Shown here one piece after another: positions 37,818 to 45,856 of a stretch of DNA of 64,000 nt. The notes under the pieces are model-generated. The model was not told where the DNA came from, did no database searches, and saw only the letters and a program-made list of their open reading frames with translations. The first letter of the stretch is position 1. Every line of letters starts with the position of its first letter. The stretch covers positions 124,001 to 188,000 of the forward strand of contig NZ_CP031313.1 in assembly GCF_004799685.1 (NCBI RefSeq), in the 5' to 3' direction. The position numbers and the translations under genes are program-made. This stretch comes from Halobellus limi. Its GTDB lineage: Archaea > Halobacteriota > Halobacteria > Halobacteriales > Haloferacaceae.

Positions 37818-38813
37818 ATGATCACGGCCGTAGTCTACTCGGAATCAGGCGGAACGTACAAGACGACTATGACCGCCAACCTCGCAGTTGCGCTTGAGCG
37901 GATGGGGCTCAATACACTCGTACTGGATCTTGATCCACAGGAGGGGAACCTAACGAGCCTCTTTGATGTCGGTGAACATCGAAACGATCCAGACGCCGAC
38001 AACCTAGTCAAACACATTCTCGATATGCCTGATGGGGATTTTCAGGAGTTGATCGAGACAACAGCAGAAGGCGTCGACATTGTTCCAAGTCACGATATGC
38101 TCGGTGACTTTACGTCGAACCTCGAGCAGAAGATTGCCTATGAGACGGGAATGCAAAATATAAGCCGCGAAGAGTATCCTCGGTTCGAACTCCTGTATGA
38201 ACTCCTCTGGAATAAGCAGAAACTCCAGGAGAAATACGATGCCGTCCTCATCGACCCGAACGCCCGGGCGGAGGACTTGCTGTATAATGCGATTTACGCC
38301 CTGCGAACGCTCGTCGCACCCGTCAAACCAGCTGGGAAAGGAAATCTGAGCCTAGAAGGACTTGAGGAACTCGTCGGAAATATGGAGAGCCAGCTCGATA
38401 TCGAGATCGGGCTGTCCTGTGTCGTACCCTCGGGAGTTGGCCAAACGAATGCTCACCAGCAGTATCAACAACAGTTCGAGAACACGGATGCATTCGCCAC
38501 CCCAGTCACCATCGGGAATCGAGAAAGCCTTATGGACGCTATGTGGGAAGCCAGAGGATCCGCATTCAAGGTTGTCGAAGAACGGTGGAAAACGTACGAA
38601 AAAGACGGTGAAATGGTGAGCGAATCCGGTCAACGACGGATACGAAACCGGGAGATCGAGACGCTGCGGAAGTTGTACGAACTTGCGTGGTTCATTGCCA
38701 CCGATACGTTCGATGCGAAGGTCGATCCAGTGCTGGAACTCGATATTCAGGACTACGAGACGAGGACGATCAATCTTCGAGATGACGAGGCAACGGAGGC
38801 GACAACCATATGA
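37818..38813 (+). CDS. parA: ParA-like partition ATPase
   Basis: A 331-residue ParA/MinD-type ATPase. The P-loop reads SESGGTYKTTMTANLAVAL, so the signature lysine of the deviant Walker A motif (normally KGG) is replaced by serine. LVLDLDPQEGNLTSLF is the switch I/A' region and AVLIDPNARAEDLLYN the Walker B region. It should drive segregation of the replicon by binding DNA and a partner protein. The next gene overlaps it by four bases, and iterons sit directly upstream. Confidence 0.9.
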   Translation: MITAVVYSESGGTYKTTMTANLAVALERMGLNTLVLDLDPQEGNLTSLFDVGEHRNDPDADNLVKHILDMPDGDFQELIETTAEGVDIVPSHDMLGDFTSNLEQKIAYETGMQNISREEYPRFELLYELLWNKQKLQEKYDAVLIDPNARAEDLLYNAIYALRTLVAPVKPAGKGNLSLEGLEELVGNMESQLDIEIGLSCVVPSGVGQTNAHQQYQQQFENTDAFATPVTIGNRESLMDAMWEARGSAFKVVEERWKTYEKDGEMVSESGQRRIRNREIETLRKLYELAWFIATDTFDAKVDPVLELDIQDYETRTINLRDDEATEATTI

Positions 38814-39430: not shown

Positions 39431-40127
39431 GGTCGTGTTTAGTTAAGGATGAAGAGTGAGGCGGGAGAATTTCTTGCTGGTCTATGGCAGAAATCGCCCG
39501 CCTCAGCGGATGCACGGACTGGATTGATTTGGATTTTGTGGAGCGACAGCGGACACCCGAGCGTGCGATGAAGCTCGGTATTCAGCTCCAGTTAGCGGGG
39601 CTGTCGCTGTCGAATACCGTCTCTATTCTCGACAAGTTGGGTGTCGAGCGCTCTCGCAAGGCAATCTATGACTGGGGGCAGAAGGCCAATCTACAGCCCA
39701 TAGATGGGCGAAGCCCGAATCACGTTGCGCTCGATGAAACCGCGATTCGAATCAATGACCAGCAATTCTGGCTGTACGCCGCCGCCGATCCCGACACAAA
39801 CGATCTGCTGCATCTGCGACTCTTTGCAACGACAACGACCGTATTAACCGAGATCTTTCTGCGAGAACTCCGCCAGAAACACAATGTCGAATCTGCTGTG
39901 TTTCTGGTCGATGGCGCTCAACACCTCCAAACTGCACTGGCCAGAGCTGGCCTCCGATTTCAAACTGAACGAGATGGAAATCGGAACGCCATCAAACGAA
40001 TCTTTCGAGAGCTCAAGCGCAGAACTTCCTCGTTCTCAAACTGTTTTAGCCACGTTGAGCTGCAAACTGCCGAAAATTGGCTCCAAGCATTTGTCGCCTG
40101 GTTCAATGCTCCAAACTAAACACGATC
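39431..40127 (+). mobile_element. IS6-type ISH element, 697 bp, with 8-bp target duplication
   Basis: The ends are GGTCGTGTTTAGTT (left) and its near-perfect inverse (right, one mismatch). The 8-bp ATATTATG occurs directly outside both ends (39423-39430 and 40128-40135), the duplication length typical of IS6/IS26-like elements. It sits inside the IS5 transposase gene and is therefore the younger insertion. The size equals that of the IS6-type element at 59780-60476. Confidence 0.92.
39484..40119 (+). CDS. IS6-family transposase (copy 1)
   Basis: A 211-residue DDE transposase. HVALDETAIRIND, FLVDGAQHL and RIFRELKRRT supply the D, D and E. The N-terminal HTH lies in LAGLSLSNTVSILDKLGVERSRKAIYDW. 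It is full length for haloarchaeal IS6-like elements and shows no lesion, so the element may be active. It is clearly related to, but distinct from, copy 2 at 59833. Confidence 0.92.
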   Translation: MAEIARLSGCTDWIDLDFVERQRTPERAMKLGIQLQLAGLSLSNTVSILDKLGVERSRKAIYDWGQKANLQPIDGRSPNHVALDETAIRINDQQFWLYAAADPDTNDLLHLRLFATTTTVLTEIFLRELRQKHNVESAVFLVDGAQHLQTALARAGLRFQTERDGNRNAIKRIFRELKRRTSSFSNCFSHVELQTAENWLQAFVAWFNAPN

Positions 40128-41167
40128 ATATTATGAACGACACATTTCAAGACAAGCTCACGAAATTCTCGATACCACGTTCGCGCACGCACGGTGTCGC
40201 CGTGCGTGCGCTTGATCGACGAGAAGACAGTCTCACACATCGATCTCTGGCGGTATCGAGGCCCATCGACCCGCGTGTTATGCGCGTGGTCGATGGGCCG
40301 GAAGATGCGATACTTAATCAGCGGTCTCACGTCTTCTTCATGCAGTTTCTGGCGTAAATCCATCCAATCGTAGCCCTTGTCGGCGGCGAGGCTGGGCAGG
40401 TCGCCTGCGTTGCGGCAGGCGACCTGCCAGCCGAGCTGTGTGTCGTGTGTTTTCTCGGTCGTACAGTGAACGTCAAGGACAGCTTGAGATTCTGTATCGA
40501 CGAGAGCGGTCGCTTTGAGTGTTTGAACGCGATAATTCGTCCGGCGGCAGTAGTGCTTGCTGGCGTTTTCGCGGTCGAAAAACGTGGCGTCGATGGCGGC
40601 GTGACCTGAGAGGTCGTGCAGCTGCGCCAACAGGCGCAGCAGCACTCGTCAGACCTTCATCTCGAAGCTATCAAACGCCTTTACCAATATTGAGTGGTCA
40701 GGGAGATCGCCCTCTTCGAGGCCGATCTCGGCCAATATATGCGGCATTTCGCTCAGCAGACCGAGAGCGTTGCGGTACGACTCATCGAGGTAAATCCGTA
40801 GACAGTGCAGCGATACAAGAGCGTAATCGGCGAAGCCGCCACCCCCTTCGGGGGCGGCGACTTCGACTCGGCCACCAACAATATTTTTAGCTAACGTGAC
40901 CGCTTTGCTCGTGAAGCGGGAGATTCTCGACATAACCACCGCGGGTTTCCCGCTTCACCTCCTTTGATTTGACGACCTATCCTGCCGCGGTACAGCGATT
41001 CACCAGAGCCGTTTAATTGGGAATCGGGGGTCGGAACCAGGTTGAGAAGAATACCGCTCGTCTTTTGAACAGCAATCCCGTGGTTGAATCTCACCTTGCT
41101 CCCCTAACGCTGGTATTAGAAGACCCTGTGTTGGTTACGGCTCAACCCGAGAGCCTGACGGCACCTA

Positions 41168-41935: not shown

Positions 41936-42475
41936 TCACACATAAGTAATCTCACCCGATGAGCCTCGTCTTTCCTCTGGGTTCTGACACTGATTCGACC
42001 AGGGTTCGATGGGCTTCACTCGTAGCTCTCCGAAGCCGTACTTCGAGTGACTGCCAACCCGGAGGATGCCGTTCTTCGCGGTCTCCACCGGACGGTCGCC
42101 CTCGTAGGCGACCACCTGCCCGTGGTCCTCGGTCTGAAGCTTGTACCTCTCACGTTGTTCCAGCACCTTCTCCTCGCGTTCACGGAGATCGCGGCGATCC
42201 TCCTTCCACCACCACGGCACGTCCTGGTCGTGAGCGTTCAGGTACTCCGACTCCAACACGAACGGCGATCACGAGTTCGAGGATGAACGCCTCGCCGTCT
42301 TCGAGACGCGAGTAGTCCAACACCTCCAGGTCTACGGCCTGCGTGTCTTTCAGCCGCGTGATGCCGTAGCCGTAGTTGCGTTCTCGTCGAGCGGGAGGGC
42401 ATCGTCCCGGTCGGCGTGGAGGTACGCGTTGATGTACCACTTCGTCGTCTGCTGTTGCGAGTCGACGGCTACTGT
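41936..42475 (-). pseudogene. Multiply frameshifted gene with RAMP-like C-terminus
   Basis: Three frames carry successive pieces of one protein: QQTTKWYINAYLHADRDDALP, then RNYGYGITRLKDTQAVDLEV through DGEAFILELV, then SPFVLESEYLNAHDQDVPWW, ending ILRVGSHSKYGFGELRVKP. Frame changes lie near 42395 and 42265. The final Gly-rich GSHSKYGFGELR resembles the C-terminal loop of RAMP (Cas5/6/7-type) proteins, but no cas gene or CRISPR array is near. The family assignment is a guess; the decay is clear. Confidence 0.5.
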
Positions 42476-42519
42476 TGAAATCCCGCCACAGTGACTCCTC
42501 TCCTGTAGGACGACCAGCG

Positions 42520-43179
42520 TTAATCCGAACGCCAGTCGGTGATATCTGTGACGGTCTCGTTTTCGAGGTCGACTGTGGCAGAGTAATACATCTCGCCGGT
42601 GGAAGGGTTGCGGATCCTGATGGTGGCCTCGTCTTTGACGTATTCTGGATGACGGTCGATGGTGACCGTACCTGTCTCGTCACTGTCTTCGACTGTGAGG
42701 GTGAACGTCTCCTCTCCCTCGGCTGTCTCACTTTCCATCGAGGTACTATTGAGGCCGGTGAAGGTCGTGGTCTGGCCAGAGTCCACGGTCAGTTTGTGGA
42801 TCGGTTCAACGATCAGTTCGTACTGTTCCAGGTCCTGAAGTACCTGCTGTACGGTCGCGTTGTTATGGGCGATTGCTTTGGCGTGACTGCGTTCGCTGTC
42901 CGTCAGTGGGTCCTCAGTCTCTGTGTTCACCTGATAGGTTCCACTTCCTTGTTGTTCGATTTCGATACTGTCGATCCGGGTTATGTTGTCGACGATGGTA
43001 ACCTGCTGATCACCCTGTTCGACAGTGACGTTGTCTTCAGACACGACGAACGCTGTACCCACCCCGGAAGCGGCGTGAGGAGTAGTGGCACCGACCGCGG
43101 TGCCGATGACAGCGAGCCCGACACCGAGAACGGCAAGGACCACCAACAGGGTGAGACGGGACTGTAGATCGGATGTCAT
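42520..43179 (-). CDS. Exported or membrane-anchored protein with PepSY-like features
   Basis: A 219-residue protein with an N-terminal membrane segment (LLVVLAVLGVGLAVIGTAVG), then an Asp/Glu/Thr-rich extracellular part. One module contains DSIEIEQQGSGTYQVNTETED. A later one (ATIRIRNPSTGEMYYSATVDLENETV) resembles PepSY-type folds. It is divergent from the membrane HTH regulator at 43328, with an 11-bp repeat array between them. It shares two motif blocks, in opposite order, with the exported protein at 44080. The function is unknown. Confidence 0.65.
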   Translation of the reverse strand: MTSDLQSRLTLLVVLAVLGVGLAVIGTAVGATTPHAASGVGTAFVVSEDNVTVEQGDQQVTIVDNITRIDSIEIEQQGSGTYQVNTETEDPLTDSERSHAKAIAHNNATVQQVLQDLEQYELIVEPIHKLTVDSGQTTTFTGLNSTSMESETAEGEETFTLTVEDSDETGTVTIDRHPEYVKDEATIRIRNPSTGEMYYSATVDLENETVTDITDWRSD

Positions 43180-43221
43180 TGGTGTTTTGGACTTAGGTGA
43201 AAGACCACATCAGTACTGCGT

Positions 43222-43276
43222 GAAACCGGTTGGGAAACGGTTGGAAATGCGTTTCACAGGCGTTTCATCCCGGTTT
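43222..43276. repeat. Five 11-bp operator-like repeats (array 1)
   Basis: Consecutive 11-mers GAAACCGGTTG, GGAAACGGTTG, GAAATGCGTTT, CACAGGCGTTT and CATCCCGGTTT have an exact 11-bp period, so they lie on one face of the helix. They occupy the divergent promoter region between the exported protein gene (start 43179) and the regulator gene (start 43328). Confidence 0.7.
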
Positions 43277-43327
43277 TACAGCGAAAGAGCGATACGCATT
43301 AGACGGAGTGCTCATTACCCTGTTCAT

Positions 43328-43915
43328 ATGGACTTGTCAGCCCTCCACGGTAAGCGCCTTATCGCGGCGTCCGCGTTCGTCGCCGCGGTCCTCGTGCTTG
43401 CCATCCAACTGATCACCCCCTCTCCGGTTATGGTCTCTATCGGTGACAACGGCGCGCAAACCACCCAGCTCGGCCAGTACTTCACTTACACCGACGTCGC
43501 CCTCATCACTGTCGCAGCCTCCCTCCTCGGTGCCAGCGGCACCTACCTCTTACTCCACGACCACACCACCACAGTCCCGACAACCGAGTCAGCGACACCG
43601 CCTCCCATCGCAAACGGCGGAGAACACCCACCGACACGACAAGCGGTTAGTGACGGACCCGGCAGCGACACTGTCCAGCACAACACAACGGCCCCTGAGG
43701 AACGGTGGGAGGACACGGTTGACCGGTTACACAACAACGAGGAAATAGTCTACACCGTCGTGCTTGAAGCCGGTGGTGAACTTCCACAACGGGATATCGT
43801 CGAGGGAACCGAGTTGTCTAAGGCCACGGTCAGCCGAACCTTGGATACCCTCGAAAGCAAGGGCCTGGTCGAGCGGAAACGCAAAGGGATGGGTAACGTC
43901 GTCGTCCTCACATAA
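43328..43915 (+). CDS. Membrane-anchored HTH transcriptional regulator
   Basis: A 195-residue protein with two N-terminal membrane segments (LIAASAFVAAVLVLAIQLI and VALITVAASLLGASGTYLLL), a Pro/Thr-rich cytoplasmic linker and a C-terminal winged HTH (LPQRDIVEGTELSKATVSRTLDTLESKGLV). This architecture is common in haloarchaeal one-component membrane regulators. The short extracellular loop (about 35 residues) could sense a signal or the flanking exported proteins. ATG 43328 starts MDLSALHGKR. Repeat arrays lie on both sides. Confidence 0.85.
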   Translation: MDLSALHGKRLIAASAFVAAVLVLAIQLITPSPVMVSIGDNGAQTTQLGQYFTYTDVALITVAASLLGASGTYLLLHDHTTTVPTTESATPPPIANGGEHPPTRQAVSDGPGSDTVQHNTTAPEERWEDTVDRLHNNEEIVYTVVLEAGGELPQRDIVEGTELSKATVSRTLDTLESKGLVERKRKGMGNVVVLT

Positions 43916-43934
43916 TCTTCGGTGAACCACCGGC

Positions 43935-43968
43935 TGAAACGGGTTCCAAACCGGTTCCGTAATGCGTT
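43935..43968. repeat. Three 11/12-bp operator-like repeats (array 2)
   Basis: The units GAAACGGGTTC, CAAACCGGTTC and CGTAATGCGTTT follow the same scheme as array 1, and ATGCGTTTC is shared exactly. The array lies between the regulator stop and the exported protein gene at 44080, where it could control that gene. Confidence 0.65.
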
Positions 43969-44079
43969 TCCAATCAATCACTTTCAGGTCTTTCATCTAA
44001 CGGTCTACGTGGAGAGCCCCCTCCTCCAGGGTTTGGAGGTTTCGGTGGTGTCTCCACGCTACCAGGTGATTGACGAACT

Positions 44080-44739
44080 ATGCGCACGAAACTTGCCCTC
44101 CTCGCGGTCGCCGCACTGCTCGCTCTCGGTACGGGTAGTGTCGTCGCCGCAATGGACACCCCTACGGCCGACACAGCGTCGGATGATGCATTGCCAGCCA
44201 ACTACACCGTTGACGTCATCAACTCCGGAGAGGTGAGTGATGAAGAGGTCGATCAGGTCATCGAGACGGCTTGGGCGAACCATACAGTCCGGAGTTACTT
44301 CGATGAGGTAACTGCCGTTCATTTCGAGGTATGGGCCTCAGAGTTGGACGAGAATGTGATCCACGTCAAGATTGCTCCGATTGAGGAGCCGGACGAGACA
44401 CGGGTCATCACCGACGTCAACCTCTCAAAGAAGCAGGTCACCTACATCGATGAACCGGTGAAACTCAACGCCTCCAACGCCATCACGATCGACGCCACCG
44501 ACTACGATCTCAACGATACGGAACACAGTCAGAACACGAACAATGAAGAAAACGCCACGAGACTCACAGCTGACCAAGCCACCCAGATAGAGCTGAACGA
44601 GAGCTCGATTGAACGTGGCGGAGACGGCACCTTCACCCTCGAAGTCGAAGACGACGACGAAACCACCACGACCGTCCCCTCAGAAGAGATTATCAGGATC
44701 GACCTGTCTCCAGAGAACCAGACAGTCAACGGCGAATAA
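44080..44739 (+). CDS. Exported PepSY-like protein
   Basis: A 219-residue protein with a Sec-type signal (LALLAVAALLALGTGSVVAA, cleavage likely after AMA/AAM) and an acidic mature part. The first block (AWANHTVRSYFDEV ... VITDVNLSKKQVTYI) looks PepSY-like. The second (NESSIERGGDGTFTLEVEDD) resembles the N-terminal block of the protein at 42520. The same length, shared blocks and shared operator-like arrays suggest the two exported proteins act together under the regulator encoded between them. Confidence 0.65.
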   Translation: MRTKLALLAVAALLALGTGSVVAAMDTPTADTASDDALPANYTVDVINSGEVSDEEVDQVIETAWANHTVRSYFDEVTAVHFEVWASELDENVIHVKIAPIEEPDETRVITDVNLSKKQVTYIDEPVKLNASNAITIDATDYDLNDTEHSQNTNNEENATRLTADQATQIELNESSIERGGDGTFTLEVEDDDETTTTVPSEEIIRIDLSPENQTVNGE

Positions 44740-45004: not shown

Positions 45005-45856
45005 TCAGTACTGTGGGTTCGTATTTTCTTGATCGGGTCGGTCAGCAGTCGATGCAGAATCAAGATCAGCAAAAAATTGCATCGTTGCGAAATTCAAACC
45101 GAGGCCGATGAAACCGCCAGCGAGAATACCAACCAAGAGCCCGAGGACGGGCACGTTCACGACGATCCCAGTCGCTACCGGAGACACAGCGAACACGAAC
45201 AGCGAAAAGCCGATGGCGTACGTGAGATACGGTCCCCCTTCGATTGCAAGCGCGTACGATGCCCGAGCCGCGTCAACGAGTCCTCGATCTCGAATGACGA
45301 TCAGATACGGCGTTCCATAGAAGAGGTACGCCACAATCAGGAAGATTACCATCCCTGGAAGAAGAACCAATAGCGCTGCACCACTGAGGCTGCCAGTGAG
45401 TGACTCAACCCCGAACACTCCCACTGCAAGCGGCAGTAACACGAGGAATGGAATCGTAGTCAACACCAGAAACGGGAGAAAATACGTACGACTGTTTTGG
45501 AGAAACGCGTACGGATTACCATCGAGGGCATTGCTGAGACTGCCGAAATAACCCGCTTGGATCGTTGCCTGAGCGATCACCAAGAGAGGAACCGTGAGGA
45601 ACACGAATGGCAGCAGCTCGATCGGCAGCCCAGTATTCACGGACACACCGGAATTAGGGACGCTGACGAACTGCCACACAGTGATGACCGAAAGCGGAAA
45701 CCCGAGTTTGAACCCAATGTGGCCGCCATCGAACGTGGTGATCGCTGTGATCTTGTTCGTATCTAATAGCGCAAACAGGATCGGAACGAGTACCAACACC
45801 AGATGCTCACTCGCACGACTCATCCCTGCCGAAAGGCGTGTCAGAAAACTCGGCAT
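45005..45856 (-). CDS. Multi-pass membrane protein, unknown
   Basis: A 283-residue hydrophobic protein with about six membrane spans, including LIVIRDRGLVDAARASYALA between helices and a final Gly-rich hairpin (VPVLGLLVGILAGGFIGLGLNF). The N-terminus RASEHLVLVLVPILFALLD starts the first span. This plan occurs in uncharacterised haloarchaeal membrane proteins. No motif points to a substrate. Upstream sequence to 46235 holds no related gene. Confidence 0.7.
   Translation of the reverse strand: MPSFLTRLSAGMSRASEHLVLVLVPILFALLDTNKITAITTFDGGHIGFKLGFPLSVITVWQFVSVPNSGVSVNTGLPIELLPFVFLTVPLLVIAQATIQAGYFGSLSNALDGNPYAFLQNSRTYFLPFLVLTTIPFLVLLPLAVGVFGVESLTGSLSGAALLVLLPGMVIFLIVAYLFYGTPYLIVIRDRGLVDAARASYALAIEGGPYLTYAIGFSLFVFAVSPVATGIVVNVPVLGLLVGILAGGFIGLGLNFATMQFFADLDSASTADRPDQENTNPQY

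Follow-up and report, generated by a model that had tools for sequence, protein, structure and literature searches.

Membrane-bound transcription regulators are already known: proteins that combine at least one transmembrane (TM) region with a DNA-binding domain have been surveyed as transmembrane transcription regulators, and that survey counts 1,384 archaeal examples (PMC10269533). Few of the archaeal membrane-bound regulators have known operators, and their reception of signals from outside the cell is mostly open. ArnR and ArnR1 of Sulfolobus are one-component regulators of this kind with two TM helices; they form oligomers and depend on two operator boxes that precede the core promoter (TCGAC-N5-GTCGA in the case of ArnR, within −43 to −84 of the target of this membrane-bound activator), and the targets of ArnR are surface filaments (PMC6396743). 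In the bacterial ToxR/ToxS and TcpP/TcpH pairs, the gene of a membrane-tethered wHTH regulator stands beside the gene of an anchored, outward-facing partner by which the regulator is controlled (see PMC11323476).

Here we describe a module, widespread in haloarchaea, that brings its own candidate operator, one near-constant exported partner and variable outputs. Built around a membrane regulator (REG), an exported protein (E1) and an array of short repeats, it probably forms a self-contained circuit, one that detects some condition outside the cell and in response turns on surface proteins of its own. Neither such a haloarchaeal unit nor its exported partners and operators are described in the available text of the survey cited above. 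We found no paper on DUF7343, none on the locus tags (old-style tags being guessed) and, among the papers searched, no account of the REG–E1–array module, which is apparently undescribed. With this module, genes so far called "hypothetical" or given the generic label "MarR family" become a testable system, also in the culturable Haloferax mediterranei and Haloarcula hispanica.

The locus and its membrane regulator

The unit occupies positions 42520–44739 of the window (the whole 64 kb stretch of DNA analysed), where REG is flanked by the genes of two exported proteins, E1 and E2 (table 1). An earlier note had described a two-span membrane HTH protein between two exported 219-residue proteins, and this is borne out by the open reading frames, the hydrophobic spans and a Pfam wHTH match. 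The setting is plasmid-like: a ParA-type gene and remnants of transposases lie nearby and suggest a plasmid or an integrated element. Parts of the broken coding remnants next to E1 are found again beside the module in loci L004/L010 and L005, and the remnants have a glycine-rich end that we take to be reminiscent of RAMP/Cas proteins. On the other side, the multi-span membrane protein adjoining the unit matches no family above its curated cut-off and is not kept with the module.

Table 1. Features of the unit and its surroundings (positions in the window)
Feature	Position	Strand	Size or content	Placement and reading	Basis
ParA-type partition ATPase	37818–38813				
Transposase-like fragments	39484–40645	both		3' of the ParA-type ATPase	
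Broken coding remnants	41936–42519	−	LKDTQAVDLEVLDYSRLEDGEAFIL..., HSKYGFGELRVKP		
E1	42520–43179	−	219 aa	divergent from REG	ORF
GGTCTTTCACC	43196–43206	−		about 15 nt from array 1 towards E1; probable part of E1 core promoter	alignment of 13 intergenic regions, plasmid loci
Array 1	43222–43276	.	five 11-bp units: GAAACCGGTTG GGAAACGGTTG GAAATGCGTTT CACAGGCGTTT CATCCCGGTTT	between E1 and REG	
AGCGAAAGAGCGATACGCATTAGA	43280–43303	+	conserved stretch	before REG; probable REG core promoter	intergenic alignment
REG	ATG 43328, stop 43913–43915	+	195 aa	membrane regulator	ORF, Pfam
Array 2	43936–43970	.	three units: GAAACGGGTTC, CAAACCGGTTC, ATGCGTTTC	between REG and E2	
CCAATCAA ... GGTCTTTCA	43970–43995	+	conserved	before E2; probable E2 core promoter	intergenic alignment, plasmid loci
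E2	44080–44739	+	219 aa	3' of REG	ORF
Multi-span membrane protein	45005–45856	−	283 aa	adjoining the unit	

In a Pfam search, the C-terminal wHTH of REG, at about residues 126–195, matches PF24034 (DUF7343; 1.3e-13) and MarR_2 (2.7e-9), and a score of 51.0 bits against the DUF7343 gathering threshold of 27.6 places the protein in that family. Inspection and conservation locate the hydrophobic spans at about residues 11–29 and 57–76, flanking a predicted outside loop of 27 residues (30–56, TPSPVMVSIGDNGAQTTQLGQYFTYTD). The wHTH is the most conserved part in an alignment of REG sequences (3.35 bits), the loop (2.79 bits) matches the TM spans (2.98 and 2.78 bits) and the linker is variable (2.13 bits). 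Since a single chain combines a TM region with a DNA-binding domain, REG falls within the definition of a transmembrane transcription regulator (PMC10269533) and is predicted to act from the membrane; our reading is that of a transmembrane one-component regulator whose wHTH would bind DNA.

REG shares two TM helices with ArnR and ArnR1, but the architecture is reversed: in ArnR an N-terminal HTH is combined with a HAMP-like and a sensing domain and with C-terminal TM helices (PMC6396743), whereas the TM segments of REG are N-terminal, its wHTH is C-terminal and a domain search gave no HAMP match. The candidate operators are likewise unlike the ArnR boxes, consisting of AAACNNGTT-type units every 11 bp, and the neighbours of REG are exported partners in place of surface filaments. 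Nor does REG have the N-terminal wHTH, single TM segment and outside domain of a ToxR-type regulator, since its own wHTH is C-terminal and two TM spans enclose a short loop; ToxR and TcpP belong to other, bacterial protein families, and the likeness we draw is one of gene arrangement and not of homology. Further REG copies occur in Halorubrum sp. Atlit-26R, where a second REG-like protein, about one-third identical to the REG of the window, is encoded at a distance of about 4 kb from the first, on one and the same contig (L009:9191–9937), and a third copy lies in locus L005.

Repeat arrays and promoter-like elements

The earlier note counted eight 11-bp units, five on one side of REG and three on the other. 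In array 1 the spacing of the GTT cores (43229, 43240, 43251, 43262 and 43273) is exactly 11 bp, but in array 2 (43943, 43954 and 43966) it is 11 and then 12 bp. The 64 kb window, both strands considered, has no five-core 11-bp chain other than array 1, whose lag-11 self-match was equalled in none of 2000 shuffles of the E1–REG intergenic region. Array 2 is weak when taken alone (30 of 2000 shuffles), yet it resembles array 1 and is conserved across loci, and exact copies of the two-unit pattern GAAACNNGTTNNNAANNNGTT occur nowhere in the 3.75 Mb genome except at these two arrays. The central unit is a perfect palindrome, GAAACGCGTTTC, in many relatives. Chance repeats are ruled out by the shuffles, the genome-wide search and the conservation across genomes.

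Each array is accompanied by conserved promoter-like elements (table 1). The element GGTCTTTCA is common to the putative promoters of E1 and E2 and lies 15–16 nt beyond the respective array towards either gene; within the element before REG, CGAAA is similar to a TFB recognition element. The promoters of the unit show no recognizable strong TATA box. Array 1 spans −43 to −97 relative to the start codon of E1. Many haloarchaeal transcripts are leaderless or nearly so and, if the E1 transcript is nearly leaderless, array 1 would lie just upstream of the BRE/TATA region.

Distribution and gene orders

REG is found in 76 of the 391 sampled genomes of the class (30 of 86 genera), with homologous loci in Halorubrum, Halopenitus, Haloferax mediterranei, Haloarcula, Halomontanus, Halostella and Halomicrobium, several of them on named plasmids. 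In Haloferax mediterranei the genes of the unit are E6P09_RS15890, RS15895 and RS15900 of pHME505. Two gene orders were identified, and the array is kept in both. In type A, the order seen in the window, E1 is divergent from REG and E2 usually follows 3', although some type-A loci are without E2; in type B, a gene for an exported protein of about 320 residues (X) is divergent from an E1–REG operon and the array lies between X and E1. The expectation that the gene triplet is conserved in haloarchaea therefore holds for REG and E1, which are nearly constant, and fails for E2, which is confined to one gene order and sometimes missing even there. This pattern suggests an invariant core of REG, E1 and array, with E2 or X as the variable output. 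An origin in viruses was considered and rejected, as no relative of E1 was found in viral contigs and no relative of REG in phages.

The association of genes and array was examined in both directions. Starting from the protein, an E1 homologue stands beside REG in 80 of 85 REG loci, an adjacency that recalls ToxS (the anchoring of E1 being predicted from its sequence), and 73 of the 85 pass an array model trained on 13 type-A sequences (pass, score ≥16; never >6.5 in 25 shuffled loci). As 12 of the 85 loci belong to the training set, the count becomes 61 of 73 when these are left out. In 71 of the 73 passing loci the best array lies no more than 250 nt upstream of E1, and further sites are found mostly just 3' of REG, before E2. 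None of the five REG loci that lack E1 passes the model (Fisher p = 2.4e-5, for related genomes that are not independent samples); in seven loci with both REG and E1 the array is weak or altered by the model, and in at least one of these (L051) it is visible. The five loci with neither a recognizable E1 nor a passing array are L054, L155, L156, L158 and L159; L054 has a divergent 243-residue exported protein instead of E1, with a looser repeat upstream. Starting from DNA alone, the bare pattern GAAACGCGTTTCANNNNNGTTTCA occurs in 27 of the 391 genomes (6 of them already known from the family search) and the reversed control pattern in none; REG and E1 lie within 1.5 kb of all 30 fetched sites, which cover all 27 genomes.

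The two findings that would have spoken against the unit, genes that never occur together and repeats that are not conserved, were thus both looked for, and the opposite was seen. The self-contained unit proposed in the earlier note is real and recurrent, its genes co-occurring and its arrays conserved and specific to it, so that one naturally reads the unit as placing both exported proteins under the common control of REG. That the array should keep to the module in so many genera would be difficult to account for if none of the module's products used it, even allowing that the genomes are related and not independent. The pairing of REG with the array as regulator and operator is hence well supported by co-conservation, from which we infer physical binding.

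Proposed mechanism and alternatives

Our preferred interpretation, which we consider reasonably probable, is a self-contained one-component membrane signalling module in which REG binds the arrays, controls itself and the exported genes and has E1 as its partner. Two TM helices would hold the short conserved loop outside the cell and the wHTH inside, where the latter would bind the tandem units cooperatively; with one unit per helical turn, REG dimers would be aligned on one face of the DNA. Since E1, REG and E2 (or X) each have units upstream, REG may control its own gene together with its exported partners. A signal would be received through the loop and TM region, and E1 is the best candidate for passing it from outside through the membrane to REG, by analogy with ToxS–ToxR and TcpH–TcpP; E2 and X could be secreted outputs or further signal-binding proteins. 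Two other DUF7343 proteins (L087:388–1761 and L088:310–1725, same genome) resemble REG in that a low-complexity linker joins the C-terminal wHTH to a TM segment, but they carry a signal peptide, an outside domain, the TM segment, a long acidic linker and the wHTH in one chain, whereas the outside domain of REG apparently comes from a separate gene. These single-chain relatives agree with a scheme in which REG would obtain in trans, from E1, what they carry in cis. REG could also act without E1, as the five homologues lacking a recognizable E1 indicate.

Within this scheme REG is most likely an activator, a call that rests on geometry: array 1 is placed much like the ArnR boxes and would, with a nearly leaderless E1 transcript, lie just upstream of the BRE/TATA region, which favours activation without proving it, and the missing strong TATA box suggests dependence on an activator. 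The main competing interpretation, to which we give a clearly smaller though appreciable weight, makes REG a membrane-tethered repressor of the E1, REG and E2 promoters that holds until an outside signal arrives, with E1 as a feedback inhibitor and not a co-sensor. Many members of the MarR-type wHTH family are autorepressors, the arrays also adjoin the promoter of REG itself and an E1 gene divergent from or operonic with REG would suit a negative feedback pair; however, the conserved promoter-like elements are not covered by the arrays, which lie upstream of them at the distance known for archaeal activators, and the weakness of the TATA region again points away from repression. Less probable still is a reading in which the signal consists of the exported proteins: REG would read the amount or state of E1 and E2 (or X) outside and feed back on their genes, and archaea would then possess a closed circuit for surface sensing or cell-to-cell signalling, with a private operator.

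Another regulator might bind the arrays, with REG merely a target that acts elsewhere or without DNA; the case for binding by REG comes from sequence comparison, which leaves this reading a slim chance. Against it, the pattern lies beside REG and E1 only, across 391 genomes, the array and E1 are absent together where REG stands alone, and the other regulator would have to be equally co-inherited, while the neighbourhoods inspected contain no second recurrent regulator gene. One could also imagine, given the ParA-type gene and transposase remnants, that hypothetical genes with low-complexity promoter DNA came together by chance on a plasmid, but we regard this as practically discounted: REG is spread over many genera, the gene order and the arrays are met again on plasmids as well as on large chromosomal contigs, the periodicity was not reached in shuffled DNA, and the forward locus test and reverse DNA search refute it.

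The exported proteins

The two proteins flanking REG are both exported but do not appear equivalent. E1 has a hydrophobic N-terminal segment followed by an alpha-beta domain; its small residues G19, A23, G26 and G30, invariant in A1, have the spacing seen in TM helices that pack together, and inspection of the sequence showed no conserved site of cleavage, so that E1 is probably anchored in the membrane by its N-terminal helix. E2 looks cleaved and released: its N-terminus is a signal peptide of classical type, apparently cleavable (..VVAA|M..), whose last residues are a conserved AA pair, and behind it come a single folded alpha-beta domain (about 40–127) and a variable tail.

Neither protein of the window belongs to a Pfam or NCBIfam family above the curated cut-off, and their relatives and X gave only weak, chance-level Pfam matches. 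AlphaFold models of both are of low confidence overall (pLDDT about 51; E1 is confident at about 90–128 and 180–219 only), and searches with these low-confidence models found no PDB fold at E ≤ 0.001. The confident parts of the two models share one order, in which two helices precede four strands; E1 adds a long insert. That order raised the suspicion of PepSY or another known exported domain, which was dropped as no Pfam member and no significant fold matched. Recent duplication was rejected as well, direct BLASTP giving only E = 0.075; the profiles of E1 and E2 match at 82% over 38 columns (95% with type-A members only), which weakly suggests a shared ancient core. The E1 proteins of types A and B are homologous (hhalign, 99.5%), and the E2 profile weakly matches some E1 and X frames. 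X itself (L034:2674–3645, L037:2996–3949, L039:2881–3867) has no Pfam assignment and has the array in common with the E1–REG operon; in some loci its frame is the one that the E2 profile also matches.
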